Assembly (NCBI RefSeq): GCF_007625155.1
Contig: NZ_VMNK01000012.1
Coordinates: 1-64,000, forward strand
Length of the DNA: 64,000 nt
Origin: Denitromonas halophila
GTDB taxonomy: Bacteria; Pseudomonadota; Gammaproteobacteria; Burkholderiales; Rhodocyclaceae
Direction: 5' to 3'
The notes below the pieces were generated by a model. The model was not told the DNA's origin. It searched no databases and saw only the letters and a list, made by a program, of their open reading frames with translations. Made by a program: the position numbers and the translations under genes. Of this stretch, positions 2,401 through 59,881 are shown piece by piece. Numbering within the stretch: position 1 is the stretch's first letter; every line of letters starts with the position of its first letter.

Positions 2401-3333
2401 ATGAGTGCCGATAGTTTCACGCGTGATATTGCCCGCGACCCCCACCTCCATGACGAGTTGCTCGACAGCTTTGATGAAGAGCTGGAGATGGAACTCGACG
2501 ACTATCGCATGGAGGCCTTGCTCGATCACGACACGCGGGGCGCCGATAGCGCCGAACGCGACATGGATCGCCGGCTGTATTTTCAGGAACTGATCCGGCT
2601 ACAGGGCGAACTGGTCAAGCTGCAGGACTGGGTGGTGCATCACAAGCTCAAGCTGGTGGTGCTGTTCGAGGGGCGCGACGCGGCCGGCAAGGGCGGTGCG
2701 ATCAAGCGCATCACCCAGCGGCTCAATCCGCGGGTGTGCCGGGTGGCCGCGCTGCCCGCGCCGAGCGAGCGCGAGCAGACCCAGTGGTATTTCCAGCGCT
2801 ACGTAAACCATCTGCCCGCGGGCGGCGAGATCGTGCTGTTTGACCGCAGCTGGTACAACCGCGCCGGGGTGGAGCGGGTGATGGGCTTTTGTTCGGACGA
2901 GGAATACGAAGCTTTTTTTCGCGATGTGCCCGAGTTCGAGAAAATGCTGACACGCTCCGGCATCATCCTCGTCAAATACTGGTTCTCGGTCACTGACGAC
3001 GAGCAAAACCGCCGCTTCCAGATGCGTATCCACGACCCGCTCAAGCAGTGGAAGCTCAGCCCCATGGACATGGAGTCGCGCCGGCGCTGGGAGCAATACA
3101 CCATCGCCAAAGAGGTGATGCTCGAGCGCACGCACATCCCCGAGGCGCCGTGGTGGGTGATCCAGCCCGGCGGCAAGAAGCGCGCACGGCTCAACTGCAT
3201 TCACCACCTGCTCAGCCAGATTCCCTACCAGGAAATTCCGCATTCAACGGTCGAGCTGCCGGCGCGGGTCTACAACAGCAACTACATCCGGCACCCGGTG
3301 CCGGACGAGATGTTTGTTCCGCCGGTGTATTGA
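2401..3333 (+). CDS. ppk2: Polyphosphate kinase 2
   Basis: PPK2-family kinase of 310 residues, which uses polyphosphate to phosphorylate nucleoside diphosphates (class I) in the cytoplasm. The Walker A loop GRDAAGKGG is at 91-99, and the Walker B-like FDRSWYNRAGVERVMGF follows about 65 residues later, with the lid region between and after them. The length and the single kinase domain fit class I PPK2. An acidic N-terminal tail of about 55 residues precedes the domain. In-frame ATG 2392 is a possible alternative start; 2401 is preferred for its distance from the upstream CGGAG. It is convergent with the metallopeptidase gene that follows. Substrate preference (GDP or ADP) cannot be read from sequence. 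Confidence 0.93.
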   Translation: MSADSFTRDIARDPHLHDELLDSFDEELEMELDDYRMEALLDHDTRGADSAERDMDRRLYFQELIRLQGELVKLQDWVVHHKLKLVVLFEGRDAAGKGGAIKRITQRLNPRVCRVAALPAPSEREQTQWYFQRYVNHLPAGGEIVLFDRSWYNRAGVERVMGFCSDEEYEAFFRDVPEFEKMLTRSGIILVKYWFSVTDDEQNRRFQMRIHDPLKQWKLSPMDMESRRRWEQYTIAKEVMLERTHIPEAPWWVIQPGGKKRARLNCIHHLLSQIPYQEIPHSTVELPARVYNSNYIRHPVPDEMFVPPVY

Positions 3334-3354
3334 TTGGATGGGTCGGTGCGCCAG

Positions 3355-3894
3355 TCAGCCATCTGCCGTGCCGGCGCCGGCCCACAGCGGCGCGCCGCCT
3401 GCGGCCAGATACGCCAGATAGGCGCGCAGGTCGAATTCCCACTGGTGATAGGCCGGCGCCATGTGTCGACACAGCTGGTAGAAGGCCTTGTCGTGCTCGC
3501 GCTCTTTCAAGTGCGCCAGCTCGTGCACCACGATCATTTCCAGAAACGCCGGCGGCATGTCCCGAAACACCGTCGCCACGCGGATCTCTCGCTTCGCCTT
3601 GAGCTTGCCGCCCTGCACCCGTGAAATCGCCGTATGCGTACCCAGCGCATGCGCGATGACCTGCAACTTGCTGTCGTAGGCCACCTTGCTCAGCGGCCCG
3701 GCCGTGCGCAGATGGGTGTTCTTGATGTCCAGCACATAGTCGTACAGCGCACGGTCGGTGCGCACGGCATGCGCGTCCGGGTATTTACGGCGCAAGACCT
3801 CGCCCAGCGTGTCGGCCGCGATCAGGTCGGTGACTTGCGTGACCAGATGCGCGGGGTAGCCGGCGAGGTAGTTGGGCGGGGGCTTCGGTCGCAT
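3355..3894 (-). CDS. YgjP-like zinc metallopeptidase-fold protein (DUF45/WLM)
   Basis: Protein of about 179 residues with the zinc motif HELAHL followed by a histidine in KEREHDKAFYQLC, the arrangement of the YgjP/M48-like family (HExxH plus a downstream His). Members of this family act as metal-dependent hydrolases; the E. coli relative has been assigned UTP pyrophosphatase activity. A GTG at 3924 would add 10 residues; ATG 3894 is chosen, but neither has a clear ribosome-binding site. It is convergent with ppk2 and divergent from the chemoreceptor operon. Confidence 0.8.
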   Translation of the reverse strand: MRPKPPPNYLAGYPAHLVTQVTDLIAADTLGEVLRRKYPDAHAVRTDRALYDYVLDIKNTHLRTAGPLSKVAYDSKLQVIAHALGTHTAISRVQGGKLKAKREIRVATVFRDMPPAFLEMIVVHELAHLKEREHDKAFYQLCRHMAPAYHQWEFDLRAYLAYLAAGGAPLWAGAGTADG

Positions 3895-3984
3895 GCGGGA
3901 GAGGGGCTGACGGAATGAGATCACGATTTTACGGGCTCGCGAGGATGCGGGCGAGGTACGCCGTTGCGCAGCCGCCGAATGCCG

Positions 3985-3998
3985 TTGATCGGTATCAA
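3985..3998 (+). promoter_or_regulatory. Perfect FNR/ANR-type box upstream of the chemoreceptor operon
   Basis: TTGATCGGTATCAA matches the FNR/ANR consensus TTGATnnnnATCAA at all ten fixed positions. It lies 67 bp before the chemoreceptor ATG. A class II promoter centred at -41.5 would place the -10 hexamer near 4021-4026, where TAAATT (4022-4027) is found, and transcription would start around 4033, leaving a leader of about 30 nt with the GAGGAG ribosome-binding site at 4054-4059. The box match is direct observation; control by an FNR-family regulator is inference. Confidence 0.7.
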
Positions 3999-4064
3999 TG
4001 CAATGGATTTGAATACCGTAGTAAATTACTCAACCTTTAGGCCGTGGGCCGATGAGGAGCGAGC

Positions 4065-5171
4065 ATGTTCGGGTTCAAGACAAGGCAGGCGCTGTCGGCG
4101 GCGCAGGCGGAAAACGCGGGGCTGAAGGCACAGGCGGCGGCCTTGGAGGCGGCGCTGACGGACACGCAGTCGCGTCTGGCCGAGTCACAGGCGCAGCAAC
4201 AGACGCTGGCTGTTCGGCAGGCGCTGCTCATTGGTGTGACGGGCAACATTCCGCGCTTTGGCGAATCGCTGGGCGGCATCCGTCAGTCCTTCGCCGGCTT
4301 GTCCGCGCAGTTGAACGAGGACTCGACGATGGCCTTGACGGCGGCCTCCGAGTCCGACGCCAATCGCGCAGCCTTTGCACAGATCGCGGGCAATCTGAAC
4401 GCCATGGTCGAGCGCATCAGCGTGGCCGGTGAGAGCGTCGAAGAATTGTCCCGGCGGGCCGGCGAGATCGGTGGCATCGTCCAGCTGATCAAGGAGATCG
4501 CCGAGCAGACGAATCTGTTGGCACTCAACGCAGCCATTGAAGCGGCGCGCGCTGGCGAGGCCGGGCGAGGGTTTGCGGTGGTGGCCAACGAAGTGCGCAA
4601 GCTCGCCGAGCGCACCGCCAAGGCGACCACCGAGATCGGCACACTGGTCACAGGCATCCAGCAGGAGACCAGCAACGCTCGGTCAATCATGGAAATCGGT
4701 GCCGACAACGCTGCCAGCCACAGCGCCGATAGCGAGGCGGCGATGCGCAGCATGCAGCATCTGCTGGAGCTGTCGCAGATGATGCAGGGCACAATCGCCA
4801 GCTCTTCGCGCATCGCCTCGGCAGAGCTGGCCAACATCGAGGAACTGACGCTCAAACTGGAGGTTTACAAGGTGCTGCTCGGCCTGTCCGACCTCAAGCC
4901 TGGCGATGTGCCGGACGAGACGCAATGCCGCCTGGGCCAGTGGTACTACGAGGGCGACGGGCGCGAGACCTTCTCGACCATGGCCGGCTATCGCGAGATG
5001 GAAGCGCCGCACAAGGCGGTGCACGATTTTGCCCGCCGTGCCGTCGAGCGTTACCTGGCCGGCGATGCGCCGGGTGCGTTGGACGCGCTGACGCGGATGG
5101 AAGAAGCCAACCTGACAGTGATGGCCGGCATGGAGCGGATCCTCGCCCAGGGTCCGGGTCGGGCGGCTTAA
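4065..5171 (+). CDS. Soluble methyl-accepting chemotaxis protein with C-terminal CZB domain
   Basis: Chemoreceptor of 368 residues with no transmembrane segment, so cytoplasmic. Residues 1-50 form a coiled coil. The signalling hairpin tip is at about 145-182 ([19 protein letters not shown] and [18 protein letters not shown]). A chemoreceptor zinc-binding (CZB) domain follows at about 255-350 with Cys288, His316 and His320. The position usually held by the first zinc-ligand histidine is Glu260 in the segment [13 protein letters not shown] domains sense zinc or cysteine oxidation in other receptors. A GAGGAG ribosome-binding site precedes ATG 4065. The stop overlaps the next start (TAATG), so the pair is translationally coupled. 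Confidence 0.9.
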
Positions 5172-7456
5172 TGGGGTGCCATGGTGAAGTGGTGGCGCTG
5201 GCCCCGGTCGAGGTCGACAGCATTGCCGCCGAAATGCGCATCGACGCGACCGAAATTGCCGCGCGCAAGGCCTTTCTCGAGCTTACCGAGACCGATGCCA
5301 ACTGCCTGCGCGCCATCCGCGAGCAGCTCGCCGGCGCGCAGCACGGCTTCGCCGACGGCTTCTACGCCTACCTGCGCCAGCTGCCCGAGCTGGCCGCGCT
5401 GCTGCCCGACGCGGCCACCGTGGCCCGGCTGAAACAGGCCCACGGCCGGTACTTCGACAGCCTGATCGAAGGCGAGTACGGCGAAGACTATGTGGCCGAG
5501 CGCCTGCGCGTCGGCATGACCCATGCCCGCATCGGGCTGACGCCAAAGTGGTATGTCGGTGCCTTCCGCAAATACCTCTCCGACATGCTGCGCGCTACCT
5601 GGCGGGCCACCGGCGGCGAGGCCGAGGCCTTCATGCCGGCCTTCGACGCGCTGCTCAAGGTGGTCATGCTCGACCTCGGGCTCACGCTCGACACCTACAT
5701 CCATGCCGACAAGCGTGCCATCGCGTTGCGTGACCGCGCCATCGAGTCGAGCGTCAACGGTGTCTTCATCGCCACCGCCGCGCCGCCCGACTACCGGCTC
5801 ATCTACGCCAACGCGGCGCTGTCGCACATCCTGGGCAGCGCGCCGGGCGCCATGATTGGCAAACCCTGCTTGTGCACCAGCGCCGAGGATGGCTTTGCGG
5901 TGATCCGCGAGGCGATCGCCGAGGGGCGCAACGGCTATACCACCTTGTCACGCCTGCGTGCCGACCGTTCGCGCCAATGGATCGAGCTGTTCCTCGCCCC
6001 GGTGCGCAGTGACACCGGCAGTGTCTCGCACTACGTTGGTGTGCTCAACGATGTCACGGCGCGCAAGGATGCCGAAGCGCAGCTGGCCTTTCTCGCCCAC
6101 TACGACACGCTCACCGGTCTGCCCAACCGCAGCCTGTTCGACGATCGTCTGGCCCAGGCGCTGGCCCGGGCCGAGCGCGGCGAAGACTTCGCGCTGTGCT
6201 TCGTCGACCTGGACCGTTTCAAGCTGATCAACGATAGCCTCGGCCATGGCGCTGGCGACGCGGTGCTGGTCGAGGTGGCGCGGCGCATGGCGGCGGTGTG
6301 CCGCAGCGCCGACACCCTGGCGCGCCTGGCCGGCGACGAGTTCGTGATTCTCGTCGAAGGGGCCGGTAGCGCCGAGCGAGCCGCCGCCATTGCCCGCCGG
6401 GTGCTGGCCGCGTTGGCGCCGCCGGTGGTTGCCCAGGGGCGCGACATCGACGTGGCGGCCAGTCTTGGCATCGCCCTGTGTCCCGTCGACGGCGCCGATG
6501 CCGACACCCTGCTGCGCAACGCCGATGCTGCCATGTATGCCGCCAAGGCAGCCGGACGCAACACCGTGCGCTTCTACGACGAAGCCATGAACCGCCGCGC
6601 CAGCCAGCGCCTGGCGCTGGAAACCGACCTGCGCCGTGCCGTGGCACGCGACCAACTGGTGCTGGTCTATCAACCCCAGCTGGTTGCGGCCGACGGCAGC
6701 CTGGCCGGCGTCGAGGCCTTGTTGCGCTGGCAGCACCCCGAACGCGGCACGGTGTCGCCGCTGGACTTCATCCCCATCGCCGAAGAGGTCGGCATCATCG
6801 CCGAGCTGGGCGAGTGGGCGCTGGGCGAGGCGGCCCGGCAGATGGTCGACTGGCGCCGGCGCGGCATCGACGTGCCGCGGGTCGCGGTCAATCTGTCGGC
6901 GCGGCAGTTTCACGATGCCGATCTGGCCGAGCGGATCGAAGCCATCCTTGCAGAGGCCGGTGCATCGGCTGAATGGATCGAGTTGGAGATCACCGAAACC
7001 GCAGCCATGGCGCACCCCTCCGACGCTGCCCAGGCCTTGGAGCGCCTGCGTGACAAGGGGCTGCAGATCGCCATGGACGACTTCGGCACCGGCCACTCCT
7101 CACTGGCCACGCTGTGCAAGCTGCCGCTCAACGTCCTCAAGCTCGACCGCGGCTTCGTCCACCACCTGCCCGATTCCGATACCGACGCGGCAGTCGCCGA
7201 TGCGGTGGTGACGCTGGCTTGCCGGCTCGGTCTGTCGGTGGTGGCCGAAGGGGTGGAGACCGAGGCGCAGCGCCAGTTCCTTGCCGACACCGGTTGCGAC
7301 GTGCTGCAGGGCTTCCTGTTTGCGAGACCGCTGTCGGCGGCGGCCCTCGAAGCGTGGCTGGCCGCGCGGGGCGGTTCTTCAAGCCCCTCGCCGGCATTGG
7401 GCTGCGCGTCTGTTAAGGTGGAACAACATGGCCAAAAAATTTCCGCTCCATCCTAA
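5171..7456 (+). CDS. Globin-coupled sensor with PAS, GGDEF and EAL domains
   Basis: Protein of 761 residues starting at ATG 5171, which overlaps the chemoreceptor stop codon. Residues about 30-180 are a globin-coupled sensor domain; His118 in THARIGLTPKWYVGAF is the likely proximal haem ligand. A PAS domain follows (about 190-305). The GGDEF domain carries AGDEF at 387-391, a variant still found in active cyclases. The EAL domain has EAL at 515-517 plus the ITET, DDFGTGHSSL, KLDR and AEGVET motifs needed for c-di-GMP hydrolysis. It is therefore predicted to adjust c-di-GMP in response to oxygen. Which activity dominates cannot be told from sequence. The reading frame extends upstream, but that part is out-of-frame chemoreceptor sequence. 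Confidence 0.9.
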   Translation: MGCHGEVVALAPVEVDSIAAEMRIDATEIAARKAFLELTETDANCLRAIREQLAGAQHGFADGFYAYLRQLPELAALLPDAATVARLKQAHGRYFDSLIEGEYGEDYVAERLRVGMTHARIGLTPKWYVGAFRKYLSDMLRATWRATGGEAEAFMPAFDALLKVVMLDLGLTLDTYIHADKRAIALRDRAIESSVNGVFIATAAPPDYRLIYANAALSHILGSAPGAMIGKPCLCTSAEDGFAVIREAIAEGRNGYTTLSRLRADRSRQWIELFLAPVRSDTGSVSHYVGVLNDVTARKDAEAQLAFLAHYDTLTGLPNRSLFDDRLAQALARAERGEDFALCFVDLDRFKLINDSLGHGAGDAVLVEVARRMAAVCRSADTLARLAGDEFVILVEGAGSAERAAAIARRVLAALAPPVVAQGRDIDVAASLGIALCPVDGADADTLLRNADAAMYAAKAAGRNTVRFYDEAMNRRASQRLALETDLRRAVARDQLVLVYQPQLVAADGSLAGVEALLRWQHPERGTVSPLDFIPIAEEVGIIAELGEWALGEAARQMVDWRRRGIDVPRVAVNLSARQFHDADLAERIEAILAEAGASAEWIELEITETAAMAHPSDAAQALERLRDKGLQIAMDDFGTGHSSLATLCKLPLNVLKLDRGFVHHLPDSDTDAAVADAVVTLACRLGLSVVAEGVETEAQRQFLADTGCDVLQGFLFARPLSAAALEAWLAARGGSSSPSPALGCASVKVEQHGQKISAPS

Positions 7457-7640
7457 ACGCCCCGAGCGCATCTGTTGGGGCTGCGACAAGTACTGCTCGG
7501 CCGACGCGCTGATGTGTGGCAACGGCGCGGGCCGTACGCTGCATCCGGCCGAGATGCTGGGCGACGACTGGTACGAGCACGGCGATTGGGGACTGGATGT
7601 GGATACGCCCGTGAAGGACCCGTCGGACACGGCCGAGTAG
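7428..7640 (+). CDS. DUF3079 small cysteine-containing protein
   Basis: Protein of 70 residues starting at ATG 7428 after an AAGGTGG ribosome-binding site. It matches DUF3079 in my memory of the family: MAKKFPLHPKRPERICWGC at the start, then CDKYC-like cysteines, HPAEMLGDDWYEHGDWG in the middle and a short tail. Three cysteines and one histidine could bind a metal, but no function is established. The first 29 bases overlap the 3' end of the globin/GGDEF/EAL gene in another frame, so it is probably co-transcribed with that operon. Confidence 0.8.
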   Translation: MAKKFPLHPKRPERICWGCDKYCSADALMCGNGAGRTLHPAEMLGDDWYEHGDWGLDVDTPVKDPSDTAE

Positions 7641-7775
7641 CGCGGTTTTGGCCGTGGCGCGTCGGCGCCAGATTTCCGAAACCATCGACACCAGCACCGC
7701 GCAAAGTGCCGATTGTCCCGGTTGCGGGGGTGCAAGAGGCTATGATGGTTGTCTTTACTGCTTCCGGCGCCCGCC

Positions 7776-8792
7776 ATGACCTCCCCCCTGTCTGATCAAC
7801 TCGCTGCCGCCTTGTCGGCCCGTGCCCCGCTTTTCGAACGTTTGGCAGAAGAGGGTACGGAGGCCTACCGGGTGTTTCATGGCAGCGCCGAGGGCGCGCC
7901 CGGTCTGACCGTGGATCGCTACGGCGATGCCTTGCTGGTACAGACCTTTCATCAGGCGCTGAGCGCAGACGATCTGGCAGCCATTGAATCGTTTTACGCC
8001 AAGGCCTACCCGGGCCTGCCGGTGATCTGGAACGACCGTAGCGCGGGCAATTCACGGGTGTCCAATGAGCTGAATGCCGCGCAGTCCGAAGCTGCCGTCT
8101 TGCCACGTGAGTTCTCGGAGTTGGGCGTCAATTACCGGTTTCAGGGCCGCCACGAGGGGCAGGACCCCTGGCTGTTTCTCGATCTGCGCGCGGCGCGGCG
8201 GCGGGTCATGGCCGAGGCCGCAGACAAGTCCGTGCTCAACCTGTTCGCTTACACCTGTGGTGTCGGCGTGGCCGCGGCCAAGGCCGGTGCGAAGCATGTG
8301 GTGAACGTGGACTTCTCCGCCTCCAGTCTCGCCGTGGGCAAGGACAATGCGCGTCTGAATGATCTGCCGATCCGGGTGCGCTTCGTGAAGAGCGATGTGT
8401 TCCCGGCGCTGCGTCAGCTGGCGGGGCAGGGGCAGTCAAAAGTGGTGCGGGGCAAGCGCATGCCGCCTTTCCCGCCGCTGGAGGGGCGCCAGTTTGATTT
8501 GGTGTTTCTGGACCCGCCGCGTTACGCCAAGAGCCTGTTCGGCGTGGTGGACCTGGTCAACGACTACTCCGCATTGTTCAATCTGGCGCTGCGCACCACC
8601 GCCGAGGGTGGCACGCTGATCTGCTGCAACAATGTGGCGCAGGTGGCGCGCGAGGACTGGGTGGACCAACTCCAGCGCAGCGCCAAGAAAATCGGTCGCC
8701 CGGTGCATTCGCTGGAGTGGATCGAGCCCGAAGCCGACTTCCCGAGTCCGGACGGTAATCCGCCCTTGAAGGTCGTGCTGCTGCGCGTGTGA
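7776..8792 (+). CDS. Class I SAM-dependent rRNA-type methyltransferase (RlmI-like)
   Basis: Protein of 338 residues. ATG 7776 is preferred over in-frame ATG 7749 because family homology begins near MTSPLSDQ. It has an N-terminal region with GLTVDRYGDALLVQTF, typical of the RlmI/YccW substrate-binding half, then a Rossmann methyltransferase domain with LNLFAYTCGVGVAAAKAG (SAM loop) and FLDPPRYAKS (motif IV). Family members methylate C5 of cytosine in 23S rRNA. The catalytic cysteine pattern is less certain (GTLICCNN), so base and position are not assigned. It is convergent with the DUF6916 gene. Confidence 0.82.
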   Translation: MTSPLSDQLAAALSARAPLFERLAEEGTEAYRVFHGSAEGAPGLTVDRYGDALLVQTFHQALSADDLAAIESFYAKAYPGLPVIWNDRSAGNSRVSNELNAAQSEAAVLPREFSELGVNYRFQGRHEGQDPWLFLDLRAARRRVMAEAADKSVLNLFAYTCGVGVAAAKAGAKHVVNVDFSASSLAVGKDNARLNDLPIRVRFVKSDVFPALRQLAGQGQSKVVRGKRMPPFPPLEGRQFDLVFLDPPRYAKSLFGVVDLVNDYSALFNLALRTTAEGGTLICCNNVAQVAREDWVDQLQRSAKKIGRPVHSLEWIEPEADFPSPDGNPPLKVVLLRV

Positions 8793-58798: not shown

Positions 58799-59812
58799 TT
58801 ATTTCCAGGGGCGATAGTAGGCGCCGAGCGTATGGCTCTGGCCTTCGGAGACATTGTTCAGCGCGGTCATCCACTCGGGCTGGACGGCGAAGCGATCGCC
58901 GTCGGTCTTGAGCCGGTCGATGGCGGCGCGCCACACGCGGGTGACCTGCTGTACATAGGCGGGGCTGCGCTGGCGACCTTCGATCTTGATGGCGCGCACG
59001 CCGGCGCGGGCCAGATCGGGCAGTAGCTCCAGCGTGTTCAGGCTGGTCGGCTCTTCGATGGCGTAGTAGGTGTCGTCACCGACCGCAAAGCGGCCCTTGC
59101 ACAGGGTAGGGTAGCCGGCGCGCTCGTCGTCGCTGAAGCGATCGATGAGGATGCCGTTGAGCCGGGTTTCCATGCCCTTGGCGGTCTGCTCCCAGCGCAC
59201 ATGCTTGCCCGGCGAGCAGGCGCCATTGCAGTTGGGCGATTCGCCTGTGGCGTAGGCCGACAGTGAGCAACGCCCCTCAACCATCACGCACAGCCCACCG
59301 AAACCGAAGACTTCGATCTCGACCGGGGTCTTCTTGATCACATGCTCGACTTGCGGCAGCGACAGCACCCGCGGCAAGACCGCGCGCTGGACGCCGAAGT
59401 GCTCGTGATAGAAATTGATGGCTTCGTAGCTGGTCGCCGAGCCCTGCACCGACAGGTGCAGGCGCAGCGCCGGATGCGTGCGGTTGGCGTAGCGCATCAG
59501 GCCCGGGTCGGCCAGGATCACTGCATCGACGCCCATGTCGGCGGCCGTGTCGATGGTTTTTGTCCACTCCGGCCAGTTGCCGGCTTGCGGATAGGTGTTC
59601 AGCGCCAGCAGCACCTTGCGGCTGCGATCATGCGCGTAGCGAATGCCCTCGCGCATGCTGGCGTCGGTAAAGTTCAGGCCGGTGAAGTTGCGCGCGTTGG
59701 TGGCGTTCTTGAAACCGACGTAAACACAGTCGGCGCCGGCGTCGACGGCGGTCTTCAAAGCGGGCAGGCTGCCGGCGGGGCAGACGAGTTCGATCGGGTG
59801 GTTGGCAGTCAT
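58799..59812 (-). CDS. ubiU: Oxygen-independent ubiquinone hydroxylase component UbiU
   Basis: Protein of 337 residues, U32-peptidase-like. ELVCPAGSLPALKTAVDAGAD starts the domain. Cys175, Cys182, Cys199 and Cys238 match the four 4Fe-4S ligands of E. coli UbiU (Cys169, 176, 193, 232). RCSLSAYATGESPNCNGAC is the central stretch. It heads the ubiU-ubiV-ubiT operon behind an FNR-type promoter. Confidence 0.95.
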   Translation of the reverse strand: MTANHPIELVCPAGSLPALKTAVDAGADCVYVGFKNATNARNFTGLNFTDASMREGIRYAHDRSRKVLLALNTYPQAGNWPEWTKTIDTAADMGVDAVILADPGLMRYANRTHPALRLHLSVQGSATSYEAINFYHEHFGVQRAVLPRVLSLPQVEHVIKKTPVEIEVFGFGGLCVMVEGRCSLSAYATGESPNCNGACSPGKHVRWEQTAKGMETRLNGILIDRFSDDERAGYPTLCKGRFAVGDDTYYAIEEPTSLNTLELLPDLARAGVRAIKIEGRQRSPAYVQQVTRVWRAAIDRLKTDGDRFAVQPEWMTALNNVSEGQSHTLGAYYRPWK

Positions 59813-59839: not shown

Positions 59840-59881
59840 AGTCTAGGGCCTGATAGAGAAATTAGGATTGATACGTGTCAA
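59840..59881 (-). promoter_or_regulatory. FNR-type class II promoter of ubiUVT
   Basis: TTGACACGTATCAA on the minus strand (59868-59881) matches TTGATnnnnATCAA with one deviation. A TAGACT -10 (59845-59840) begins 29.5 bases downstream of the box centre, exactly the class II spacing. The predicted start is near 59833, 20 bp before ubiU. UbiUVT is FNR-controlled in E. coli. Confidence 0.75.

Follow-up and report, generated by a model that had tools for sequence, protein, structure and literature searches.

The 140-bp intergenic region in front of a chemoreceptor and globin operon of Denitromonas halophila is best read as a conserved two-input promoter, in which activation by an FNR-family regulator would be combined with repression by IscR; we regard this reading as reasonably probable. 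The operon lies near the start of the window, the whole stretch of 64,000 nucleotides of contig NZ_VMNK01000012.1 that was analysed. The region contains two sequence elements that are conserved in register in orthologous promoters, the two genes downstream are clearly identifiable, and the genome encodes both anr and iscR. ANR, or a DNR-type paralogue, probably activates the promoter at low oxygen and [2Fe-2S]-IscR probably represses it, with binding and the signs of regulation predicted from sequence. An earlier first-pass annotation had described the upstream box and the operon; the second dyad, and with it the probable two-input character of the promoter, is new relative to that description. 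The features are as follows:

3985..3998, no strand assigned: perfect FNR/ANR-type box, TTGATCGGTATCAA, centred at 3991.5
4013..4037, no strand assigned: candidate IscR type-1-like operator, ATACCGTAGTAAATTACTCAACCTT, with its core AGTAAATTACTCAAC at 4020-4034, lying over the predicted -10
4019..4028, plus strand: predicted -10 region, TAGTAAATTA, 22-23 bp after the box, placed by sequence and class II geometry
4065..5171, plus strand: soluble chemoreceptor with an MCP signalling domain and a C-terminal CZB-like domain, Glu260/Cys288/His316/His320 (Pfam, alignment, model)
5171..7456, plus strand: globin-coupled c-di-GMP protein, protoglobin (His118)-PAS-GGDEF (AGDEF, I-site RSAD)-EAL (EALLRW, DDFGTG) (Pfam, motifs)

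The FNR/ANR-type box and its regulators

The first-pass annotation reported a perfect FNR/ANR box at 3985-3998, and the sequence there is exactly as it stated. It is the only exact match to TTGATNNNNATCAA (TTGATN4ATCAA) in the window, where 100 dinucleotide shuffles gave a mean of 0.01 exact matches and a single shuffle reached one; with one mismatch allowed, 7 matches were found where 0.47 would be expected, and no shuffle gave more than 3. The whole genome (4,393,467 bases in 34 contigs) contains 15 exact boxes and 160 at one mismatch, compared with 0 and 10 for a reversed-pattern control, so the palindrome exceeds chance at both scales. TTGAT/ATCAA is the classical FNR/ANR site. The box centre is located 73.5 bp upstream of the ATG at 4065. 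In class II promoters the centre of the activator box lies at about -41.5 relative to the transcription start; applied here, this geometry would have transcription begin around 4033 and the -10 fall at about 4021-4026, a segment reading TAGTAAATT. The class II spacing proposed earlier agrees with a -10-like sequence at the right distance from the box, the start itself being a prediction; a consensus scan of 3300-7800 returned no sigma-70 site.

Open reading frames around the 15 perfect boxes were called mechanically, and those selected by eye were searched against Pfam. Eleven boxes have a Pfam-named ORF starting within about 300 bp, these being the receptor described here, an AMP-binding enzyme, a POR N-domain protein, OmpW, cytochrome c oxidase subunit II, a hemerythrin-CRP/FNR fusion, a TonB receptor, a cytochrome c, a nitrous-oxide-reductase (nos) propeller protein, a solute-binding protein and PqqD. 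An SSF symporter lies about 600 bp from one further box (L008) and a molybdopterin Fe4S4 oxidoreductase about 770 bp from another (L012), while the ORFs picked at L006 and L013 gave no named near gene. By its gene content, the set makes a credible anaerobic regulon. The box at the hemerythrin fusion regulator (L007, G000 C31:45528-45541) is positioned about 120 bp before a gene that itself encodes another oxygen-type sensor. Elsewhere in the window, an FNR-like box matching at 9/10 positions (TTGACACGTATCAA, 59868-59881, minus strand) is found 56-69 bp upstream of ubiU (58799-59812, minus strand; NF047963, 560 bits); passages of PMC10470549 describe E. coli ubiUV as Fnr-activated.

Ten HTH_Crp_2 matches above cut-off are encoded in the genome. 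The search for an FNR/ANR gene suggested by the first-pass annotation identified one at C15:72972-73712, with a CSQCNLQELC cysteine motif near its N-terminus, one further cysteine, and a score of 250 bits to NCBIfam Fnr NF008365 (cut-off 228). About 3 kb from anr is a second CRP/FNR protein gene (L019), whose product has an FNR-like E..SR helix and is without the cysteine motif. Among the 26 genomes of the ortholog set, ANR was detected in 22 (E <= 1e-50), counting one copy with an in-frame stop (G425) and one partial match of 51% (G553); G490 carries only a detected globin gene. No close ANR was found at this threshold in G543, G546, G549 and G555. DNR-like CRP/FNR proteins (L207, L209, L210) occur in three relatives without a close ANR, in which the boxes match at 8-10/10 positions, and those of G543, G546 and G549 have LTQEHFSRI helices; two of the genomes without a close ANR hold the promoters L042 (box 10/10) and L038 (box 9/10). 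Since some box carriers without a close ANR have DNR-like proteins, FNR-family control is well supported and control by ANR specifically less so. The regulator named earlier therefore stands as regards its gene and the conserved box, but ANR is not the only fit, given three box-bearing relatives with DNR-like proteins and no close ANR.

The second dyad and its conservation

The second conserved dyad, AGTAAANTACTCAAC, is located 31.5-33.5 bp downstream of the box, and its core, AGTAA-A-TTACT, is unique in the genome with up to two mismatches allowed. Compared with the E. coli IscR type-1 consensus, printed in a section of PMC3899308 as ATASYYGACTRWWWYAGTCRRSTAT, the window dyad matches at 19 of 25 positions (76%) and those of relatives at up to 22. 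The window copy has more than three mismatches to a simplified IscR pattern (one that hits 25 places where its control hits 16), and its left half is weak (CCGTAGT for YYGAGT). Clearer dyads are present in the more distant relatives L145, L146 and L147, and the Propionivibrio dyad (L038) reads ATTGTTGAGTAaaaTACTCAACAAT. The same section of PMC3899308 gives two sites, A and B, proposed for P. aeruginosa iscR, with GAGT and ACTC arms and 68 and 76% identity to the consensus. The D. halophila genome encodes iscR, one of four Rrf2-type matches in all; its own iscR promoter has two type-1-like sites (21/25 each), and a GAGT-type site is found just before a Grx4-family glutaredoxin gene.

Present in 23 of 25 genomes searched, iscR provided 22 distinct promoters, this genome's included. 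From these, 42 sites with at least 19/25 identity to the E. coli consensus were reduced to 30 distinct ones by removing duplicates and sites at the end of the upstream gene, and were built into a symmetrical broad matrix. Its best match in the window is 4013-4037 at 21.7 bits, the next being 10.0, and 20 mononucleotide-shuffled versions of the window reached at most 17.5; 23 of the 27 orthologous promoters described below exceed 16 bits. Across 80 loci (649,894 positions), 15 of the 16 matches of at least 20 bits are this element, as are 18 of 48 at 16 bits, the rest falling mostly in AT-rich loci. The broad matrix, whose sites were picked by the E. coli consensus, favours the element, whereas a genus-only matrix from five same-genus iscR sites gives 4013 only 12.9 bits, behind two other window positions at 13.7 and 13.4. 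A strong site for the IscR matrix (26.5 bits) is also found at 492-516 of L042, apart from the element.

Orthologous promoters were collected from a P0001 search of the genome collection, in which 393 stretches had a relative and the best 80 of 393 were used, and from a globin-domain search of a 150-genome family, in which 29 of 150 matched at E <= 1e-20. Among those best 80 of 393, the nearest named organism is Denitromonas iodatirespirans (89%). The comparison set comprised 27 distinct promoters, the window's own included, and the best box and best element were sought freely over 150 bp of each. A box of at least 8/10, centred 31.5-33.5 bp from the centre of the second element, is present in 20 of the 27, eight of them perfect; lowering the threshold to 7/10 in the same register gives 22. 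In half of the box carriers (10 of 20) the second half-site ends in TCAT instead of TCAA. Mononucleotide-shuffled promoters reached at least 8/10 at three fixed positions in 0.08% of cases, a control that leaves relatedness in, though the flanks have diverged. Absence of the box from relatives, which the first-pass annotation had named as grounds for giving up its proposal, is not what was found.

Seventeen of the 27 promoters, chosen for carrying both elements and taken from the window or named records, were aligned. All columns invariant before the codon preceding the start fall within the two elements (14 and 25 bp), namely TTGAT and TC.A of the box and T4014, AGTAAA.TACTCAAC and T4037 of the dyad, whose core is invariant but for one column. 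The pair is missing from five of the 27 promoters (L045, L046, L048, L053 and L149), and no perfect box was found at any of the family's fourteen globin-coupled genes for which a receptor was not detected. In L142 (G484, outside the 27), only 46 codons of the receptor gene survive, from its N- and C-terminal ends (1231-1480), and a perfect box and AATTCCCGAGTAAATTTCTCAAC are kept before the globin gene at a spacing of 32.5 bp. Conversely, L038, L041 and L042 keep both elements before the receptor, with no globin gene found within the examined locus. Together with the receptor-free globin genes, where no perfect box stands, these cases indicate that the pair goes with this operon. The last ~115 bases before the globin start of L148 (G490) encode a short receptor-like N-terminus, perhaps another receptor loss or fusion.

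Conservation of the dyad core may in part be just that of the -10. It is conceivable, though rather unlikely, that the promoter is of FNR-family type only, the downstream element being a strong -10 and initially transcribed region kept for promoter strength, with IscR uninvolved. The core AGTAAATT sits at the expected class II -10, the left arm is variable and the genus-only matrix is not decisive; however, ACTCAAC, which lies past the predicted -10, is the same in all 17 aligned promoters, and the arms in distant relatives are dyad-like (ATAGTTGAttaaaatgcTCAACTAT in L146, ATAGCTGActagactgcTCAGCTAT in L147) while the centre changes. A dyad serving as operator of another Rrf2 protein, or of an unrelated dimeric regulator with few targets, is harder to credit: the single occurrence of the core in the genome and the four Rrf2-type matches would fit it, but the Rrf2 gene L172, which we take to be NsrR-like, has a different palindrome upstream, and the broad matrix built from iscR sites scores no other window sequence as high as the dyad.

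The operon might also respond to NO or denitrification and not oxygen, the box being read by a DNR/NnrR-type regulator in place of ANR, which we consider unlikely. L019 with its E..SR helix so near anr, and the relatives with L207, L209 and L210, point in this direction, as do two boxless promoters with NsrR-like dyads, L048 (AAGATGTATAGTACGTACATCTT, 17/18) and L053 (AATATGTATAGTTAATACATGTT, 16/18, beside an IscR-like site of 19.9 bits). The NsrR half-site used is a presumed pattern, scored after the sequences had been seen; it gives 15 at this genome's NsrR-like gene and a maximum of 13 in the window, which L046 (13) does not surpass. It is possible that one Fe-S regulator has been swapped for another in L048 and L053. 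Against a DNR/NnrR-type reader stand the ANR genes in 22 of the 26 genomes and the classical FNR/ANR form of the half-sites.

The operon products and a two-input model

The operon content given in the first-pass annotation was recovered by Pfam. The product of the first gene is 368 residues long and has MCPsignal (7e-33) and CZB (4.6e-16) domains, and that of the second, at 761 residues, has Protoglobin (2.1e-33), PAS_9, GGDEF (2.6e-49) and EAL (1.1e-74) domains; the receptor stop codon TAA (5169-5171) shares one base with the ATG of the globin gene (5171-5173). The protoglobin domain aligns with HemAT and other globin-coupled sensors through an H-x-R-I-G-L motif that retains the proximal histidine, suggesting a putative heme globin. 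The GGDEF and EAL signature motifs are intact, including AGDEF with RSAD five residues upstream, EALLRW and DDFGTG, and the protein is predicted to be a c-di-GMP synthase/hydrolase. The globin gene is overlapped at its end by a DUF3079 ORF at about 7429-7640 (plus strand), which may be part of the operon.

A Foldseek search with the structure model returned the CZB domain of DgcZ (3t9o) as first PDB match. Cys288, His316 and His320 are kept, but the canonical zinc core of three histidines and one cysteine is absent from the receptor, as Glu260 occupies the position of the first ligand histidine; the glutamate is found in 25 of 25 orthologs, and this form of the CZB domain appears to be a new observation. 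A Marinobacter receptor (L055, 3884 onward) also has a Glu-form CZB-like domain and is without an FNR box of 8/10. Any metal and ligand of the receptor would be a matter of prediction. The two operon genes are probably sensors of oxygen or redox state that guide swimming and life on surfaces. In the earlier suggestion one oxygen regulator expresses another oxygen sensor; for the receptor a role in sensing oxygen itself is at most putative, Pfam having identified there a CZB-like domain only, with neither a heme nor a PAS domain.

In the two-input model, an FNR-family activator, most likely [4Fe-4S] ANR, would bind 3985-3998 and recruit polymerase from a class II position at low oxygen. [2Fe-2S]-IscR on the dyad at 4013-4037, over the -10, would block the promoter when Fe-S clusters are plentiful. 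Output would then be highest where low oxygen coincides with high cluster demand or damage, as in microaerobic, denitrifying, NO-exposed or iron-poor cells. The products, a cytoplasmic chemoreceptor of metal/redox type and a heme-globin c-di-GMP synthase/hydrolase, would tie oxygen and redox sensing to swimming and attachment. If correct, oxygen and Fe-S status meet at a single promoter that times deployment of the cell's direct oxygen and redox sensors for swimming and biofilm formation, in a bacterial group known for denitrification. A bolder and quite speculative extension is an iron-and-oxygen navigation module. In this scheme ANR and IscR (in some relatives NsrR and IscR) would control both the globin c-di-GMP enzyme and a novel subclass of CZB domain, in which the Glu-Cys-His-His site would hold iron or some metal other than zinc; taxis and surface attachment would thereby be coupled directly to Fe-S status, oxygen and NO. 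If the metal site of this CZB subclass is indeed altered, the question of what CZB domains sense would become testable by comparison.

Comparison with known systems

In the literature searched, no system turned up that joins an FNR box and an IscR-type operator to a globin c-di-GMP protein and a CZB domain of altered form. Aer is a membrane FAD-PAS receptor, whereas the receptor described here is soluble and CZB-like, shares its operon with a globin c-di-GMP protein and stands behind a second operator of Fe-S-regulator type. Control of a chemoreceptor tied to oxygen behaviour by an FNR-family anaerobic regulator is predicted here and reported in P. aeruginosa, where aer, the aerotaxis receptor gene, is under ANR control according to passages of PMC13401364 citing Hong et al. 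2004; an oxygen regulator driving an aerotaxis receptor is therefore already known. The E. coli dosCP (dgcO-pdeO) operon, as portrayed in parts of PMC8846402, likewise places a globin-coupled c-di-GMP enzyme in an oxygen-sensing operon, but there globin-GGDEF and PAS-EAL are two proteins and the pair includes no chemoreceptor, whereas here globin, PAS, GGDEF and EAL are joined in one.

The receptor shares with TlpD, McpA and DgcZ a CZB domain by profile and fold, the Cys-x-Leu-Gly-x-Trp motif and HxxxH, and TlpD is also a soluble receptor with a C-terminal CZB domain, but relative to the accounts in sections of PMC8262984 and PMC13370339 the first zinc-ligand histidine is glutamate in this clade. 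Similarly, the IscR-repressed isc promoter of P. aeruginosa, in the portion of PMC3899308 that treats it, has a type-1-like dyad overlapping the RNA polymerase site, as predicted here; in the present case the promoter serves a signalling operon and carries just one predicted site, alongside an FNR box.
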